A DNA stretch of 64,000 bases from an uncultured Bermanella sp. (GTDB taxonomy: Bacteria; Pseudomonadota; Gammaproteobacteria; Pseudomonadales; Oceanobacteraceae), in NCBI GenBank assembly GCA_913058575.1, contig CAJXRF010000009.1:1-64000 (forward strand), written 5' to 3'. Position numbers and translations under genes: made by a program. Positions 26,106 to 43,057 of the stretch are shown piece by piece (position 1 is the stretch's first letter; the number at the start of each line of letters is the position of its first letter). Below the pieces are notes generated by a model. The model saw only the letters and a list, made by a program, of their open reading frames with translations, had not been told where the DNA came from and made no database searches.

Positions 26106-29100
26106 ATGAAACGGAATTTCAAAGTCTCTTCGATAATAAGAAGGGCTACTCTCCATGCTTTGTTATTTTCTAGTACCATTATTCTAGCTGGTTGTGGAGC
26201 TGATTCTGATGACGAGCTGCCTCTTGTGGATTTAAGGTTGTTACAAGCTTCTGAGGTTTGTGAATTTGGCGGAAGTGAAATACGCACGGGCATTGATAGC
26301 AATTCAAATGGAGCGCTTGAAGATTCAGAGGTTATTTCTGCCACCGTAACCTGTGACCCGGAGCCGGATAGCGTAATTTCATCCGTAGCATTGAGCTTTA
26401 ATGGAAATGAAGATGAACCCTTATCAGGGCAGTTATCAGCTTCTGGTCAGGCTGACAGTATCACCTATCATATATCTCTAAATCCTTTTAAAGGGGTTGT
26501 GCAGGTAAGCGAAGACGGCAGTTTTATTTACACGCCCCATGAAAATGTGACAGGAAGTGATGTTTTCACCTATTTCTTGATGATAGATGGCCAGCCTTCA
26601 AATACCAGTGTGGTTGAGATTAATTTATCTGAAATCAATGATGCTCCTGTTGCGCAAGAAACTAATTTATATGCTTACAATACATCAGCGGTCAATATTC
26701 AATTATTAGCTGATGATGCAGACTCGCAAGATTTAGTATTTACATTAATAGACCCTCCTATATCAGGTAGTGCACTGATAAATGAGGGCGGCTTATTGAA
26801 TTACACAGCCAATGAAGGGTATTTAGGAACCGACCAACTTACTTTTTCTGTATCTGATGGTGAATTGCAGTCCACTGCTTTGGTAAATATAAGCGTTACA
26901 AATACTGTATTACAAGTCACTTCAGAATCCCCAGCTCAATATTCAATCGAGAGGGGTGTTTTGGAGCAACAGCGCACTACTCTGAGCAACTTAGGGGATG
27001 AGTTTGTTTTGGTATGGACTGTAAATTCTCCTGAGTGGTACTCAAGAGTATCTGATGTTATTGCAATTGCAGGTCGAAGCTCTATTGAAGTAGCATTTGA
27101 TCTAGATGCCCGCCAGTTGGATGAAGGAAGTTATCAGGGGGATGTTGTTTACACCAGTGCTGAGCCAGGCATGCCAACTATTTCTCAAAGCATATTGTTA
27201 GACGTGACCGAAGATTTAAGCCCGCCGGCTGTTGTTTCTGATCTGTCGTTAGATGGCATTGCTGAATTTGATCAAGTAAATTTACGCTGGACCGCTGTGG
27301 CAGATAGTGGACGAAGAGGACTACCAGTTAGTAGCTATGAAATTCGTTATTCAACTTTAGCAATTACTGAAGGGAATTGGTCTTCAGCTACAACAGTTGA
27401 TTTGACACAAGTCCCTGCTCTGCCGGAAAGCACTGAAGAAGTATTAGTGACATCCTTGTTAATGGATACGACCTATTTCTTTGCAATTAAATCTACGGAC
27501 CGATTTAATCAGGTTTCAGGGCTGTCGAATATATTAAGCTTCACTACGGCCACTCCACCCGTTCCTGAATTAGCTAATAGTGCGATATCTTTAAGAGAAG
27601 CTGAGCAAGCAATAATCGATGTCGTATTAAATAATACGGGACAATCTACATTAAAGTACTCCGCTTCATTAGCTGTGAATGGTTTAAGCGAGTCGGCCCA
27701 ATTACAGGCTGCTACCGTTAATAAAAGTTTAGCATCTACTAAGTTTAGAGAGTTAAGCTCCTTATCTGTAGCCAATAATAATGGCGACATCATTATTAAG
27801 CTTAATAGTGCCCAGCAAAATACCCGTTCATTTAGCGATGTGTTAAATCAATATAGCTTACAAGAAACAAAATCTTTTGATGCATTGGGAATTAAAGTTG
27901 TTAGACCAGAAAATCAAAATGATGTGGTTAATATTATCAATGAACTGAACAGACTGGAAAGTGTGGTTTATGCCGAACCAGATTATTCTGTTCAAGCATT
28001 GTATTTACCCAATGACACATTTGTGTCTGAACAATGGGCTGTGAATAATGAAGGTCAAACAGGTGGCAGTTTTGACGCAGATATTGATGCTGTGGAATCT
28101 TGGGATCGATATAAAGATGGAGCTAATGTTGTAGTAGCAGTTATTGATACCGGTGTTAAATATGATCATGAAGATTTAGTCGATAATATTTGGGTTAATC
28201 CGAATGAAATTGCGGGTAATGGTATCGATGATGATAATAATGGTTATATCGATGATATTCATGGTTATGATTTTGTGAATTCAGACGGTGACCCAATGGA
28301 TGATAATGATCATGGCACTCACTGCTCAGGAATTCTTGGTGCTAAAGGCGATAATAATCTAGGCATAGTAGGCGCTGCCCATACTGCTAATATAATGGGA
28401 GTAAAATTCTTAAGTGCTGGTGGTTCAGGTAATACTTCAGATGCTATAGACGCAGTACTTTATGCGGTAGATAACGGCGCGAAAATATTAAGCAATTCTT
28501 GGGGTGGTGGTGCATTTTCTCAAGCGCTGTTTGATGCTATCTCTTATGCAAATGATCATGACGTATTATTTATAGCAGCTGCAGGAAACGATAGTTCTAA
28601 CAATGATAACAGTCCAAGTTATCCTGCTAATTATGATCTGCCTAATGTGATCTCAGTGGCTTCTAGTGACCAGAATGATTTACGCTCAGGATTTTCAAAT
28701 TATGGATTAAGTGTTGATTTAGCTGCCCCAGGCAGCGATATACTGAGTTCAACTTCAGATGGTGGCTATAAAGAATATTCAGGAACTTCGATGGCAACAC
28801 CTTATGTATCTGGTGCGGCAATTCTTATTCGTTCTAATTTCCCTGAGTTAAGTGCGTTAGAGACTAAAGATATACTGTTAAGCACCGTCGATGCATTGGA
28901 TCAATGGGAAGGCCTTGTTGCAACTGGTGGGCGATTGAATGTTTCTCGTGCTTTGGAAGAAGCTTCAAAGGGTGCATATATAGCTATTACTGAAAATGCT
29001 GAGGGGGAAGTTGCCCCTGGAGAGTCAGTGGTTATTCGTTTGGAGATAGATGCCACAGATAAAATAGCGGGGTTATATGAGCACCAGTTAGTGCTGACAA

Positions 29101-30491
29101 CAAATGCCCCTGGCTTTGAAACGCTGACTTCTGAAGTGAGTGTGACTGTTGAGTTTGATGCTCAAGCACCCAGTGCCATCGATGATTTAATGGTGTTTGA
29201 GGTAGCCCCTGATTCTATTAACTTGCGGTGGAACAATGTGGGAGATGATGGTGGCACTGGGCAGGCCAGTGCACTTACTTTTGCATATTCCACAACTGAG
29301 ATTACCTCAGATAATTGGAGGGATGCTACCCTAGTTGATGGTCCAACGCCGACAGCAAGTGGAGAAGTACAAAGTTTTACAGTATCTAATTTATTGCCGG
29401 ATACAGAGTATTATGTGGCGATGAAGTCAATAGATAATTCTGGGCAGTCTTCATTCATATCCAATGTCGAGTTTATCAAGACACCTCTAGGCTCAGTAGT
29501 AAGTGTGACACCAGAAAGCATTGCTGAGGTCAGTTTAAATCAAGGGGAAAGTAGCGTTGTTTCTTTCTCAATTGGTAATGATGGGGATGAAACCCTTGAT
29601 TACACAATTAAGTTGGTGGATACATTGGAGGATGCGCAGCCAACCCAGCAATATGAAAGTGTTACTCATGTAAAAGGTGAGGAAGATACCCGTACAGGTT
29701 CAATCTCGCCACAGGGCTCGGGTGGTCCTGATGACTATGGCTATCAATGGCGTGATAGTGATGAGGGAAATGTTCATTATAATTGGACGGATATAAGCAG
29801 TATAGGAACAGGCATAAGCTTTAGTGATGATTCAGTTAGTGCTTCGATTGATTTAGGATTTACCTTTAATTTTTATGGCGTAGATTACACACGAGTATAT
29901 GTTACTTCAAATGGATTCTTATCATTTTCTAGCACTAGTCATGGTTGTTGTTCGGGTCAACCTTTGCCATCAGTAGATCCTTATAAAAACTTAATTGCTT
30001 GGGCTTGGAAGGACTTGCATCCTCGTGGGGGGACTGCACATTATCTAACAAATGGTAATGATTTTATTGTGCAATTTACCGATTATGGGGAGTTTTCTGG
30101 CTCAGGGTATGTCACAGCTCAAGTTATTATTTCTAGTAACGGTAAAATTAAAATTCAATACAATAACTTTACCAGTGCATTTACTAAAACTAATGTTAGC
30201 GTAGGAATTGAAAATTCAGATTCCACCGATGGTCTACAAGTTGTATTTAATTCATCTTATTTAAAAGATGAATTGGCAGTAGAGTTTACGACGGACGTTG
30301 GCTGGGCGTCTCTCAGTCAATCGCTTGGATCTGTATTGAGTGGTGCGAGTGCAGATGATATTGATCTAACAATTGATGCCAGTGATTTAGATGTCGGAAA
30401 TTATGAAAAGTATGTTGTTGTGGAATCTAATGATGCTACGAGCCCTCAGGTGAGTTTACCTATTAGCCTTGAGGTTTTAGCTGCTCCTTAA
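26106..30491 (+). CDS. Large multidomain subtilisin-like lipoprotein protease (S8)
   Basis: This 1461-residue protein starts with a signal peptide and lipobox (ILAGC). Next come cadherin/Ig-like repeats (about 95-280), a fibronectin III domain (about 375-485), an I9-type propeptide (about 560-640) and an S8 catalytic domain with Asp681 (VIDTG), His736 (HGTHCSG) and Ser895 (SGTSMATP). A second fibronectin III domain lies at about 1025-1120, and a beta-rich domain with FNFYGVDYTRVYVTSNGFLSF fills the C-terminal part. The propeptide and protease sit in the middle of the chain. It is probably surface-attached and degrades protein. AAAGGAT precedes the ATG. It stands alone. Confidence 0.92.
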   Translation: MKRNFKVSSIIRRATLHALLFSSTIILAGCGADSDDELPLVDLRLLQASEVCEFGGSEIRTGIDSNSNGALEDSEVISATVTCDPEPDSVISSVALSFNGNEDEPLSGQLSASGQADSITYHISLNPFKGVVQVSEDGSFIYTPHENVTGSDVFTYFLMIDGQPSNTSVVEINLSEINDAPVAQETNLYAYNTSAVNIQLLADDADSQDLVFTLIDPPISGSALINEGGLLNYTANEGYLGTDQLTFSVSDGELQSTALVNISVTNTVLQVTSESPAQYSIERGVLEQQRTTLSNLGDEFVLVWTVNSPEWYSRVSDVIAIAGRSSIEVAFDLDARQLDEGSYQGDVVYTSAEPGMPTISQSILLDVTEDLSPPAVVSDLSLDGIAEFDQVNLRWTAVADSGRRGLPVSSYEIRYSTLAITEGNWSSATTVDLTQVPALPESTEEVLVTSLLMDTTYFFAIKSTDRFNQVSGLSNILSFTTATPPVPELANSAISLREAEQAIIDVVLNNTGQSTLKYSASLAVNGLSESAQLQAATVNKSLASTKFRELSSLSVANNNGDIIIKLNSAQQNTRSFSDVLNQYSLQETKSFDALGIKVVRPENQNDVVNIINELNRLESVVYAEPDYSVQALYLPNDTFVSEQWAVNNEGQTGGSFDADIDAVESWDRYKDGANVVVAVIDTGVKYDHEDLVDNIWVNPNEIAGNGIDDDNNGYIDDIHGYDFVNSDGDPMDDNDHGTHCSGILGAKGDNNLGIVGAAHTANIMGVKFLSAGGSGNTSDAIDAVLYAVDNGAKILSNSWGGGAFSQALFDAISYANDHDVLFIAAAGNDSSNNDNSPSYPANYDLPNVISVASSDQNDLRSGFSNYGLSVDLAAPGSDILSSTSDGGYKEYSGTSMATPYVSGAAILIRSNFPELSALETKDILLSTVDALDQWEGLVATGGRLNVSRALEEASKGAYIAITENAEGEVAPGESVVIRLEIDATDKIAGLYEHQLVLTTNAPGFETLTSEVSVTVEFDAQAPSAIDDLMVFEVAPDSINLRWNNVGDDGGTGQASALTFAYSTTEITSDNWRDATLVDGPTPTASGEVQSFTVSNLLPDTEYYVAMKSIDNSGQSSFISNVEFIKTPLGSVVSVTPESIAEVSLNQGESSVVSFSIGNDGDETLDYTIKLVDTLEDAQPTQQYESVTHVKGEEDTRTGSISPQGSGGPDDYGYQWRDSDEGNVHYNWTDISSIGTGISFSDDSVSASIDLGFTFNFYGVDYTRVYVTSNGFLSFSSTSHGCCSGQPLPSVDPYKNLIAWAWKDLHPRGGTAHYLTNGNDFIVQFTDYGEFSGSGYVTAQVIISSNGKIKIQYNNFTSAFTKTNVSVGIENSDSTDGLQVVFNSSYLKDELAVEFTTDVGWASLSQSLGSVLSGASADDIDLTIDASDLDVGNYEKYVVVESNDATSPQVSLPISLEVLAAP

Positions 30492-39980: not shown

Positions 39981-40226
39981 CCCTGCTTTAGACGTTTGTT
40001 AGTGGAACCTTCGTGCCGTCATTAGCTTGGTAATTATGTTGCTAAGTAGAGGGCTTGGATATTTTTTAACAGGGATATATGGCACACTGTGGCACAAATA
40101 TATGTCTTGTTTTCCCTAGGCATTAATTACAGTACAGAATAATAAAAATAAAATAGCCTTAACAGAATATGCCCTCAGATGCTTATTAGGCTTTAACCTT
40201 AAACAAGTTCAGCAAAGGAGCGCTGC

Positions 40227-40571
40227 ATGAAAAATAGCCTGTTGTTAGTGCCCTCGCTCACTTGCTGGTCCATAGCGTTAATCATGGCCGTGGGGTTGTT
40301 TAATGGCCAAGTAATGGCCAATGAAAATACAAGTTTACGGGTTATTTATTATAGTCATCAAGATGTAACCCAAGCGTCACTGATGCAAACGCTTAAGAGC
40401 CAATTGACTGTGCCAGATAAAATCGAATATTTACGAAAGATGCGCTCAAACGGACATGTACTACGCCTGATCAGTACAGATGAACAATCCCTTAAAAATA
40501 TGATGCAAACGATCAAGCAATTGCCCCTCACCCGGTTGCTTGAAACCGACTCAATTATAAAAATACAATAA
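40227..40571 (+). CDS. Secreted small protein resembling an I9 protease propeptide
   Basis: The 114-residue protein has a signal peptide (to about residue 32, GQVMAN). The remaining 80 residues have the length and pattern of a peptidase-inhibitor I9 domain. The part SNGHVLRLISTDEQSLKNMM and the following LETDSIIK line up with the propeptide of the adjacent subtilase (GFGHVIKLGEMASLEEMN, VKADTRM). AAGGAG precedes the ATG, and the protease starts 8 bp after its stop, so the two are translated from one message. It may chaperone or inhibit that protease. This is inference from pattern, not a search. Confidence 0.7.
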   Translation: MKNSLLLVPSLTCWSIALIMAVGLFNGQVMANENTSLRVIYYSHQDVTQASLMQTLKSQLTVPDKIEYLRKMRSNGHVLRLISTDEQSLKNMMQTIKQLPLTRLLETDSIIKIQ

Positions 40572-40579
40572 TAAATATT

Positions 40580-42982
40580 ATGAAAATCGCTACCTATTTA
40601 AGCTCAGCTTTATTTTTGTTGTCTGGTAACTACTTGCAGGCACATGCCCCTCTAATGGACGGGAAAAGTAATTCGCATTCTAAAACCCATCAAGCTCAAA
40701 AGTTTAGTCAATACACTGACCAAATTATTGTAAAGCTGAAAACAGCTAAAGCGTATGATCAGGTTAAATTTATTAAATTAGCTGAAGAAGCTACAGGTAA
40801 AATATTTACGCATGTTCGATCTTTTAGCGATGGTTTCGGTCATGTAATAAAATTAGGGGAAATGGCTAGCTTAGAGGAAATGAATGACATTGCTTTAAGC
40901 TTAAAAGAAATAAATAGCTCAATTCAATACGTCAAAGCCGATACGCGAATGTTTCCCATGGCGACGACCCCCAATGATGAATTTTTTGCTAATAGACAAT
41001 GGAATTTACAAAGTTCGGCTACACAGGGATTGAATCTACCCGCCGCATGGGATTTCACAACGGGTTCTAGTGATGTGGTGGTAGCCGTATTAGATACTGG
41101 TGTTTTAAAGGACCATGTTGGCTTTGATAGTACCCGATTGCTTGATGGTTTTGATATGGTATCCGCTAATAATGTTGACGGTGCTTTTACAAAATCTGGT
41201 GATGGGGATGGACAAGATAGTGACCCTAATGACGAAGGGAACTGGGTAACTAATCTAGAAAGCACTGATGGAGCAGGAGAGTTTTTTGGTTGCACAGAAA
41301 CTTCAAGCACTTGGCACGGTACCCATGTGGCGGGAATCATTGGGGCGGCTTCTAATGATGGTAATGGAGACGGGTCGGGTGGTGGTATTAGCGGTATCGA
41401 TTGGAATACTAAAATATTGCCGGTGAGGGTATTGGGTAAATGTGGCGGTTATACATCGGACATCATTGATGGTATACGCTGGGCAGCTGGCTTAGAGGTA
41501 ACAGGAATCACAACTAATTCTAATCCAGCAGATGTGATTAATATGAGTTTCGGCACGGTGAACGCTTGTGACATAACCCTTCAAAGTGCTATCGATGATG
41601 CCCGCACTGCTGGCAGTGTAGTAGTGGTAGCAGCCGGTAATGATTCGGCTTTGGCAATTGATTCAACCCCTGCAAATTGTGAAAATGTAATTGTAGTCGC
41701 TGCACATGATCAAAATGGTGAGCTTTCAACGAGCAGTAATTCAGGCGTTAATGTGGATGTAATAGCACCAGGTGGAAATACAGCTACGACCTGTAATGAT
41801 GATTCTCAAGAAGCCATTTATTCTCTAGGAGATGGTGGAACGCAAATGGCAAATTTAGATAATAGTTATATCTGCCATGAAGGTAGCAGCATGGCGGCGG
41901 CCCATGTTTCCGGTGTAGCTTCTTTAATGCTAGCGGGTAACCCAAGTCTCACGCCAGGTGAAATAGAAACTGCTATTAAACAAACAGCTCGTAGTTTTGT
42001 TGGTGGCACTACATGTGAAACCAATAACGATACTTGTGGCATAGGTATCGTTGATGCTGCGAGCGCGATAGCTTCTGCAATAGCCCCAAGTAATTTAACA
42101 ATGGAAAATGTTGATTATGACATTCAATTTACTTGGCAAGATAACTCACAAATTGAAACAGGTTTCAAAATAGAGCGTTCTGTTGATAGCGGTGACTTTG
42201 AAGACGTGGCTACAATTGCCTCTAATATCACAACCTATCTTGATGAAAATGTTCAGGACTTAGCCACAACTCTATATCGTGTTTCTGCTATAAAGGGTGA
42301 AGCTGTCAGTGAGTCGGTTGAAATTACCGTTACCGACCAAGCATTAGCACCAGCAAGTAACCTTATTGCGCAGGAAGTAACAAATAATCAAGTAAAACTA
42401 ACTTGGCTAGATGCCTCGAACAGTGAATTAGGTTACCAAATCGATCGCTCTGACAATGACAAAACGAACTTTAAGAGACTTCATATTACTTCAGCGAATA
42501 TAAGTGCTTATACAGATGCAAGTCTTATAGATGGCACTCATTATTTCTATAAAATTCAAACCATAACCGAATCGGGTTTAAATGATGCTATTGAAGAAAT
42601 CGAAATTTTTACAAATATAAGTGAACCCACTTTTTTAACTGGCCGTGCGAGCTCTAGCCAAATAAGTTTGTCCTGGGTGGATAATGCCGCGACTGAAACG
42701 GGTTTTAAAGTTGAGCGCTCAATCGATGGGGTTAATTATAGCCAAATCGCTTCCGTAACGTCAGATATAACAGCCTATACAGATAACACTGTTTCGGGTT
42801 CATCCTTTTACTATTATCGTGTTAAGGCTTATAAAGATTCCAATGATAGTGAAAGTGTTTACTCTGAAATCACTTCACTAAGCACACCTAGCAGTACAAA
42901 AGGTGCAGGCAGTGTTCACTGGTACTTGTTATTTGTATTACTGTTTTTACTTAAACGCTCTTATCTTGTAAAACTAAAATAA
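40580..42982 (+). CDS. Secreted subtilisin-like protease (S8) with GlyGly-CTERM-like tail
   Basis: The 800-residue preproprotein has a signal peptide (to about 22), an I9 propeptide (about 48-130) and an S8 domain with Asp172 (VLDTG), His246 (HGTHVAG) and Ser437 (GSSMAAAHVSG). Three fibronectin III-like repeats of about 90 residues follow (about 505-775), each with a GF/YKIxRS-like core. The C-terminus is GAGSV, a hydrophobic segment, then basic residues, like GlyGly-CTERM signals cut by rhombosortase. No clear ribosome binding site is seen, so coupling to the small gene 8 bp upstream is likely. It is a probable extracellular nutrient protease. Confidence 0.93.
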   Translation: MKIATYLSSALFLLSGNYLQAHAPLMDGKSNSHSKTHQAQKFSQYTDQIIVKLKTAKAYDQVKFIKLAEEATGKIFTHVRSFSDGFGHVIKLGEMASLEEMNDIALSLKEINSSIQYVKADTRMFPMATTPNDEFFANRQWNLQSSATQGLNLPAAWDFTTGSSDVVVAVLDTGVLKDHVGFDSTRLLDGFDMVSANNVDGAFTKSGDGDGQDSDPNDEGNWVTNLESTDGAGEFFGCTETSSTWHGTHVAGIIGAASNDGNGDGSGGGISGIDWNTKILPVRVLGKCGGYTSDIIDGIRWAAGLEVTGITTNSNPADVINMSFGTVNACDITLQSAIDDARTAGSVVVVAAGNDSALAIDSTPANCENVIVVAAHDQNGELSTSSNSGVNVDVIAPGGNTATTCNDDSQEAIYSLGDGGTQMANLDNSYICHEGSSMAAAHVSGVASLMLAGNPSLTPGEIETAIKQTARSFVGGTTCETNNDTCGIGIVDAASAIASAIAPSNLTMENVDYDIQFTWQDNSQIETGFKIERSVDSGDFEDVATIASNITTYLDENVQDLATTLYRVSAIKGEAVSESVEITVTDQALAPASNLIAQEVTNNQVKLTWLDASNSELGYQIDRSDNDKTNFKRLHITSANISAYTDASLIDGTHYFYKIQTITESGLNDAIEEIEIFTNISEPTFLTGRASSSQISLSWVDNAATETGFKVERSIDGVNYSQIASVTSDITAYTDNTVSGSSFYYYRVKAYKDSNDSESVYSEITSLSTPSSTKGAGSVHWYLLFVLLFLLKRSYLVKLK

Positions 42983-43001
42983 AGCATTTCCATATTTCAT
43001 T

Positions 43002-43037
43002 AAAAAAGGCGTCACATGTAAATGTGACGCCTTTTTT
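43002..43037. terminator. Bidirectional terminator between subtilase and thiolase
   Basis: AAAAAAGGCGTCACAT at 43002 pairs with its complement ending at 43037 around a short loop. A-run and T-run on both sides serve both convergent genes. Confidence 0.95.
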
Positions 43038-43057
43038 AATGTATTTTTGTTACTAGC

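Follow-up and report, generated by a model that had tools for sequence, protein, structure and literature searches.

Within a 64,000-nt stretch of DNA from an uncultured Bermanella sp. (the window), a gene for a small, exported-looking protein stands directly ahead of a gene for a secreted subtilase. An earlier note on this stretch, made from the letters alone, took the small protein for a free-standing I9-type propeptide, an extra copy of the one that the protease already has, and proposed that it could be a secreted inhibitor or a folding helper acting in trans. We examined this pair and its relatives by profile comparison, structure prediction and a survey of other genomes.

The gene pair and the protease's own propeptide

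Both open reading frames (ORFs) are real and lie on the same strand, with the protease starting 8 bp downstream of the small gene, as the note had described (Table 1). Removal of the signal peptide (residues ~1-31, by eye) leaves a mature small protein of about 83 amino acids. A Shine-Dalgarno-like sequence stands ahead of the small gene but the gap shows none, so translation of the protease is probably coupled to that of the small gene. Terminator-like sites number three against 2.7 expected in shuffles; the stem of the hairpin behind the protease gene is much the longest of the three. Around the unit we counted five promoter-like sites against 9.7 expected, and no promoter stands out among them.

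Table 1. Features of the small gene and protease unit (positions in the window).
Feature	Position	Strand	Remarks
Shine-Dalgarno-like AAAGGAG	40214..40220	+	6 nt 5′ of the small gene's ATG; read directly
Stand-alone I9-like gene (putative propeptide mimic), 114 amino acids	40227..40571	+	ORF, propeptide profile, AlphaFold2 model
Sec signal peptide	40227..40319	+	likely cut after VMA (residue 31), judged by eye; lipobox scan, none
C-terminal tail DSIIKIQ-stop	40548..40571	+	ends at D+6, as the 1scj and 1spb prosegments do
8-bp gap TAAATATT	40572..40579	+	no Shine-Dalgarno sequence
Secreted S8 subtilase, 800 amino acids	40580..42982	+	S8 and FN3 domains (Pfam)
Protease's own I9-like propeptide core	40712..40960	+	residues 45-127 (...KADTRMFPM); profile score and model
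S8 catalytic domain	41069..41992	+	DTG, HGTH and GSSMA motifs intact
Terminator-like hairpin 3′ of the protease	42998..43041	+	20-pair stem

The protease is a clear S8 enzyme (Pfam E 3.7e-51, with an FN3 match as well), and its catalytic motifs sit at conserved positions in an alignment with 11 relatives. Behind a signal peptide of its own, recognised by eye, it carries an I9-like propeptide at residues ~45-127, which scores 43.5 bits against a profile of other proteases' propeptides and is modelled as β-α-β-β-α-β (the catalytic domain of this model is poor; mean predicted local distance difference test score, pLDDT, 57.4). The note's statement that the protease already has a propeptide is thus borne out. 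The propeptides of related proteases share a YxExDxxM motif. The nearest solved structures to the catalytic domain are 7w2a, 5yl7 (a Pseudoalteromonas enzyme), AprV2/AprB2 and BprV. In this it is like the Pro21717/AprV2-type subtilases, whose propeptide forms the N-terminus of the precursor, whereas the small protein of the window has a separate gene.

The C-terminus of the protease (42900-42982, +) consists of a Gly/Ser turn, a hydrophobic stretch and basic residues; it has no NCBIfam match, and we take it to resemble a GlyGly-CTERM-type sorting signal. A second subtilase in the window (26106-30491, +; 1461 amino acids) has a fervidolysin-like prodomain and S8 domain that start only near residue 560. 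The Ig/cadherin-like repeats N-terminal to its prodomain make this an unusual internal propeptide.

Kinship with subtilase propeptides at family level

The note had aligned the second half of the small protein with the propeptide of the neighbouring protease. Between the two sequences this alignment does not stand: the local score is 26 against a shuffle mean of 25.9, which is chance, and the neighbour's propeptide ranks 34th of 42 by pairwise score to the small protein. We therefore rejected a recent duplication of the neighbour's propeptide as the origin of the small protein.

At family level the alignment holds. We searched 390 genomes of the order and, from the matches, fetched 60 loci, not every match, with 66 related subtilase ORFs. 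From these we cut 38 propeptide cores; five of the 43 proteases picked were dropped for a misfit of the motif, and more than 12 further proteases were not picked. With the locus's own protease excluded, a leave-out profile of 37 cores placed the small protein second among the 176 ORFs of the window (19.7 bits, E 8.6e-6), behind the protease itself and ahead of the other subtilase, and gave it E 1.4e-4 against 2767 ORFs. The mature small protein scored 21.0 bits with this profile, whereas its reversed sequence scored 3.6 and the highest score among 5000 shuffles was 18.3, and the reversed decoys of 2367 short ORFs reached a maximum of 7.5 bits. The alignment spans residues 50-113, mainly the second half, where the note had seen the likeness. 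When a profile of seven stand-alone proteins (introduced below) was compared with 15 propeptides using hhalign, the match had a probability of 97.25% and E 2.8e-11 (a single comparison) over 85 columns and extended over almost the whole mature domain. A profile of the six other stand-alone proteins, too thin a set, gave the small protein only E 0.037 (12.8 bits, with 11.7 for the best shuffle).

Solved structures gave a similar picture. When a profile of 13 stand-alone proteins was searched against the PDB, the first three matches were prosegments of subtilisin E and BPN′, with E values of 8.2e-4 to 1.1e-3 that refer to the whole sequence and are carried mainly by the last 30 residues. Proteinase K came fourth, and seven of the 11 sequences at E up to 10 were subtilase entries. 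The best four matches of the earlier seven-row profile, with 1scj on top, had reached only E 0.064 to 0.33.

Curated models and single-sequence searches see little of this. The small protein has no match over cut-off in Pfam, including PF05922 (Inhibitor_I9) and PF22148 (Fervidolysin_NPro-like), or in NCBIfam. Relatives came close to the Pfam gathering cut-off at best (20.5 bits against 21; 17.1 against 21.2), and none of the stand-alone proteins scanned (14 of 19 against Pfam, seven against NCBIfam) exceeded a curated cut-off. Since a Pfam I9 scan of the family gave a single match over cut-off, in a frame of 620 amino acids, the curated I9 model is nearly blind to this group. A single-sequence search found no homologue of the small protein in the genome contig collection or the plasmids, and a scan of the genome contigs with the protease as query gave nothing. 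In nine genomes of the genus, the other matches to the small protein had E 0.13-0.53, which we took as chance; in 44 genomes of the family, it matched only itself.

Structure prediction agrees with the profiles. The AlphaFold2 model of the small protein, built from the seven-row alignment, has a mean pLDDT of 86.1 and the order β-α-β-β-α-β (strands 5-13, 35-42, 46-53 and 72-77; helices 19-29 and 56-67), which is that of the I9 superfamily fold of ~70-80 residues. In the model of the protease, its own propeptide shows this order too, so the I9 arrangement, for which the note had suggested structure prediction, is predicted in both parts. A fold search with Foldseek and VIA brought up ferredoxin-like folds of a generic kind, and none of the 50 matches listed is an I9 entry. 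We rejected this search as proof of I9 identity; the fold is too common for it to discriminate I9.

Judged by these comparisons, the small protein is related to S8 propeptides, and the kinship is real at family level. One could still suppose a ferredoxin-like small secreted protein with no tie to propeptides, or a decaying remnant, whose resemblance is due to chance; the chance-level pairwise similarity, the generic fold matches and the silence of Pfam and NCBIfam would fit this. We consider it very improbable in view of the profile statistics with their shuffles and decoys, the hhalign result and the prosegments at the head of the PDB matches, along with the recurrent linkage and conserved tail end described below.

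Stand-alone relatives and their subtilase neighbours

In what follows, G numbers denote genomes, L numbers denote loci, and C60 is another contig of the host genome. The propeptide profile picked short ORFs directly beside subtilases in G190, G308 and G327. Weak matches (E 0.1-2) in G050, G071 and G009 were accepted because their motif, size, signal and position fit. These six and the small protein were the seeds of the first stand-alone profile, which found ten further short frames in the 390 genomes of the order (G360, G202, G243, G223, G168, G077, G141, G113, G192 and C60); other short frames of this search, with E >0.001, are not among the final set. A 17-row profile matched 11 of 369 genomes of the class, the host's own included, and added G588 and G720, the remaining matches being judged by their long open frames. 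An improved profile matched one of 31 genomes in the order of G588, namely G588 itself. Altogether, we count 19 stand-alone proteins, the small protein among them.

Two candidates were discarded. The match in G595 is a subtilase apparently split by a frameshift (L205, 3392-4189, -; frames of 266 and 362 amino acids) and not a stand-alone protein, and a weak match of the G009 protein at L040 has overlapping frames without relatives. A borderline candidate in G075 (L183, 153-779, -; 209 amino acids, E 0.00113) has a long C-terminal extension and no S8 ORF in the 6 kb examined; it is not among the 19. In G009, an ORF with long PESSL tandem repeats (L038, 42-842, +) lies 5′ of a subtilase.

A stand-alone gene adjoins a subtilase gene in 10 of the 19 cases, and all ten pairs are co-directional. 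The stand-alone gene is upstream in four (the window pair, G050, G071 and G588) and downstream in six (C60, G190, G308, G327, G009 and G720), with gaps of 8 bp in the window, 11 bp in G588 and 18 bp in G720, and up to 387 bp in G050. No subtilase ORF was found for the other nine in the 9-11 kb loci examined, which reach only ~2 kb upstream in G360 and 3.5 kb in G192 before the contig ends; as this check used a profile from 12 related subtilases at E up to 1e-10, a distant subtilase could be missed. These counts carry a selection bias, most linked proteins having been found by looking beside proteases. Linkage among the seven seeds is not independent evidence, because six were found beside proteases and the seventh is the small protein. 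Outside the seeds there are 12 proteins, of which those of C60, G588 and G720 are linked and nine, from about four lineages, are not.

The host genome is informative here. Five S8 matches, of which two fall in a single gene, give it four S8 genes, and each of its two stand-alone I9 genes adjoins one of these. The chance of the non-seed C60 gene adjoining one of four subtilases is ~0.2%, for ~5000 genes as estimated from 5.72 Mb. The C60 pair (L181, 5276-7903, -) consists of a protease with S8, PA, PPC and P-domain, a 57-bp gap and an I9-like protein of 107 amino acids. The pairing for which the note had suggested a search thus recurs, as subtilase-adjacent I9-like genes in other genomes and again on C60; it fails in the nine unlinked cases, within the loci examined, and among 44 genomes of the family we found no close orthologue of the window pair.

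Two lineages differ in the protease alone and keep the stand-alone gene. In G050, a subtilase separates the stand-alone gene from a gene that comes immediately after it in G202 and G223, where the neighbours are 65-86% identical. In G190, G308 and G327, a subtilase lies between an upstream gene and the stand-alone gene, which are direct neighbours in G360; the upstream gene of G360 (L172) is 81-92% identical to its relatives at L095, L105 and L136. Across four related genomes (L082, L173, L174 and L175), the stand-alone gene's upstream neighbours are kept, and in three its downstream neighbour, which we take to be SelD-like; the subtilase stands in between only at L082 (G050), which points to a protease gained or lost next to an I9 gene that stayed in place. 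Stand-alone I9-like genes also occur at L176-L180, in five genomes of one family, with no subtilase ORF in the locus. Their neighbours are presumably a response-regulator-like gene and, in four of the five, an RtcB-like one.

Another possibility is a general guard of the envelope, an exported I9-like protein that neutralises subtilases at large, own or foreign, with only loose linkage to any of them. The unlinked genes and the two lineages that keep the gene with or without a subtilase are as it would predict. So is the poor fit of partners: the propeptide of the own protease is the best match in only one of nine pairs tested (G720) and ranks 4-37 in the others (G308 was left out, and four propeptides were trimmed by hand). 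Both stand-alone genes of the host genome lie beside subtilases, however, and every linked gene is co-directional with its partner, with gaps as short as in the window, G588 and G720; we regard a general guard as quite unlikely.

C-terminal tails and a candidate propeptide mimic

The last strand carries a conserved Asp, from which we number the tail (D+n). In solved complexes, the prosegment chains end exactly at D+6: 1scj_B has 71 residues with the Asp at 65, and 1spb_P has 78 with the Asp at 72. D+6 is the P1 residue in these complexes, the first of subtilisin E and the second of BPN′. A Gln at D+6 is likewise the last residue of the small protein and of its relatives in G588 and G720 (DSIIKIQ, DIRLKTQ and DRIMRIQ, respectively), and the G071 chain ends at D+7. 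Where a residue follows D+6, it is Pro in eight of 16 stand-alone proteins and in none of 38 propeptides (Fisher p 1.2e-5, which overstates independence because the eight cases come from some three lineages, namely a genus with three of them, a group with four, and C60). Subtilisins rarely cut before proline. The G360 protein, which lacks a protease partner, has Gln at D+7 and is the only member of its genus without Pro there, a single case that is suggestive only. A lipobox is classic in G071 and loose in G588, with a second possible site in G720 by eye; in some lineages the mimic may thus be lipid-anchored.

The tails favour a persistent, uncleavable binder. We propose, with a probability of about 55%, that the small protein is an uncleavable propeptide mimic, a longer-lived inhibitor or holding factor of a subtilase. 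A stand-alone I9-type domain would be made just before a subtilase with its own propeptide, probably on the same message. It would be exported via Sec, fold in the periplasm and dock on the mature catalytic domain of the neighbour, and perhaps of others, with its C-terminal tail in the substrate cleft as a propeptide's would be. A chain that ends at P1 would mimic a propeptide already cut and offer no bond to cut; among relatives with longer tails, many have proline at the presumed P1′. Because the tail has no cleavable bond, inhibition could outlast that by the enzyme's own propeptide and keep the protease inactive within the envelope or while it is secreted.

The main rival is the other role that the note had offered, a trans-acting folding chaperone, and sequence cannot decide between inhibitor and folding helper. 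The small protein would aid periplasmic folding of the protease as ORF2 does for the Aeromonas serine protease ASP, any inhibition being no more than a part of the folding cycle. Operon-like linkage with the small gene first in four of ten pairs suits this role, and ORF2, too, has its C-terminus at the catalytic site of ASP, according to the available part of PMC5638518. In both systems a bacterial subtilase is encoded next to its partner; unlike ASP, which has no propeptide, the window protease keeps its own I9-like one (available part of PMC5638518, ORF2 being compared by description only). A second chaperone is not obviously needed for a protease with its own propeptide, and tails without a cleavable bond suit a lasting binder better than a transient one. 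We consider the chaperone rather unlikely.

Several observations weigh against our proposal of an uncleavable mimic. The chance-level pairwise score and low rank of the neighbour's propeptide, the marginal result with the six-protein profile and the missing I9 entries in the fold search all count here, as do the nine unlinked genes. Besides the non-independence of the proline cases, the remaining D+7 residues are mixed (four Lys and one each of Met, Asp, Gln and, at the G071 chain end, Tyr). Nor does P1 have a fixed position. Of the 11 solved sequences listed for the protease group, eight start at the position of window-protease residue 129, and three (AprV2/AprB2) start one later; in most relatives, where the PND motif is one residue closer than in the window protease, these starts correspond to D+7 and D+8, and P1 is therefore D+6 or D+7. 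In the available part of PMC5821440, refolded Pro21717 is described as residues 145-483, and the natively secreted enzyme is reported to start with GAQNSSWH, which is out of line with this and may reflect further processing. Finally, Plasmodium SUB1-ProM inhibits even though its tail is variable and leaves part of the groove empty (available part of PMC6993865).

Stand-alone I9 inhibitors and the ASP/ORF2 chaperone are already known; what would be new here is a bacterial, subtilase-adjacent mimic with its chain end at the presumed P1. Bacterial subtilisin inhibitors of other folds exist, among them Streptomyces SSI. A secreted protease held by a separate partner is also found in Myxococcus, where we take the protease, PopC, to be subtilisin-like. 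There PopD blocks PopC secretion in non-starving cells and is degraded on starvation, unlike anything proposed for the window pair (available part of PMC6434023; PopC/PopD and the likeness of PopD to I9 were compared by description only). Those stand-alone I9-type inhibitors named in the available part of PMC6993865 are all eukaryotic: POIA1 (Pleurotus), IB2 (yeast) and SPI-1 (Arabidopsis), with the mimics TgMIC5 and Plasmodium SUB1-ProM. Like these, the small protein comes from a gene of its own, is predicted to have the propeptide fold and shows very little sequence similarity; it differs in being bacterial and exported, in ending at the presumed P1 and in being known from sequence and model alone, whereas the activity of the eukaryotic proteins has been tested. 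SUB1-ProM, a propeptide-like inhibitor, is itself encoded beside subtilases (available part of PMC6993865), and the small protein shares with it the separate gene next to a subtilase, the signal peptide and the absence of a catalytic domain. Among the matches listed in a search of the open-licence literature, we found none on bacterial stand-alone I9 proteins beside subtilases, which is no proof of absence.

More tentatively, we raise the possibility, short of an even chance, of a system spread among bacteria. In it, subtilases that have an ordinary cleavable propeptide would also receive a stand-alone mimic, made uncleavable by a chain end at P1 or by Pro at P1′, as a safety lock of the envelope. 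If this is true, many Gram-negative bacteria would carry unannotated, fast-diverging propeptide mimics that act in trans and guard the envelope from the cell's own secreted proteases. It would become testable how such proteases stay silent in transit, and why one with its own propeptide needs a second. A simple sequence rule, a chain end at P1 or proline at P1′, would tell an inhibitor from a cleavable propeptide, and the mimics would be candidate inhibitors or stabilisers for industrial subtilases.

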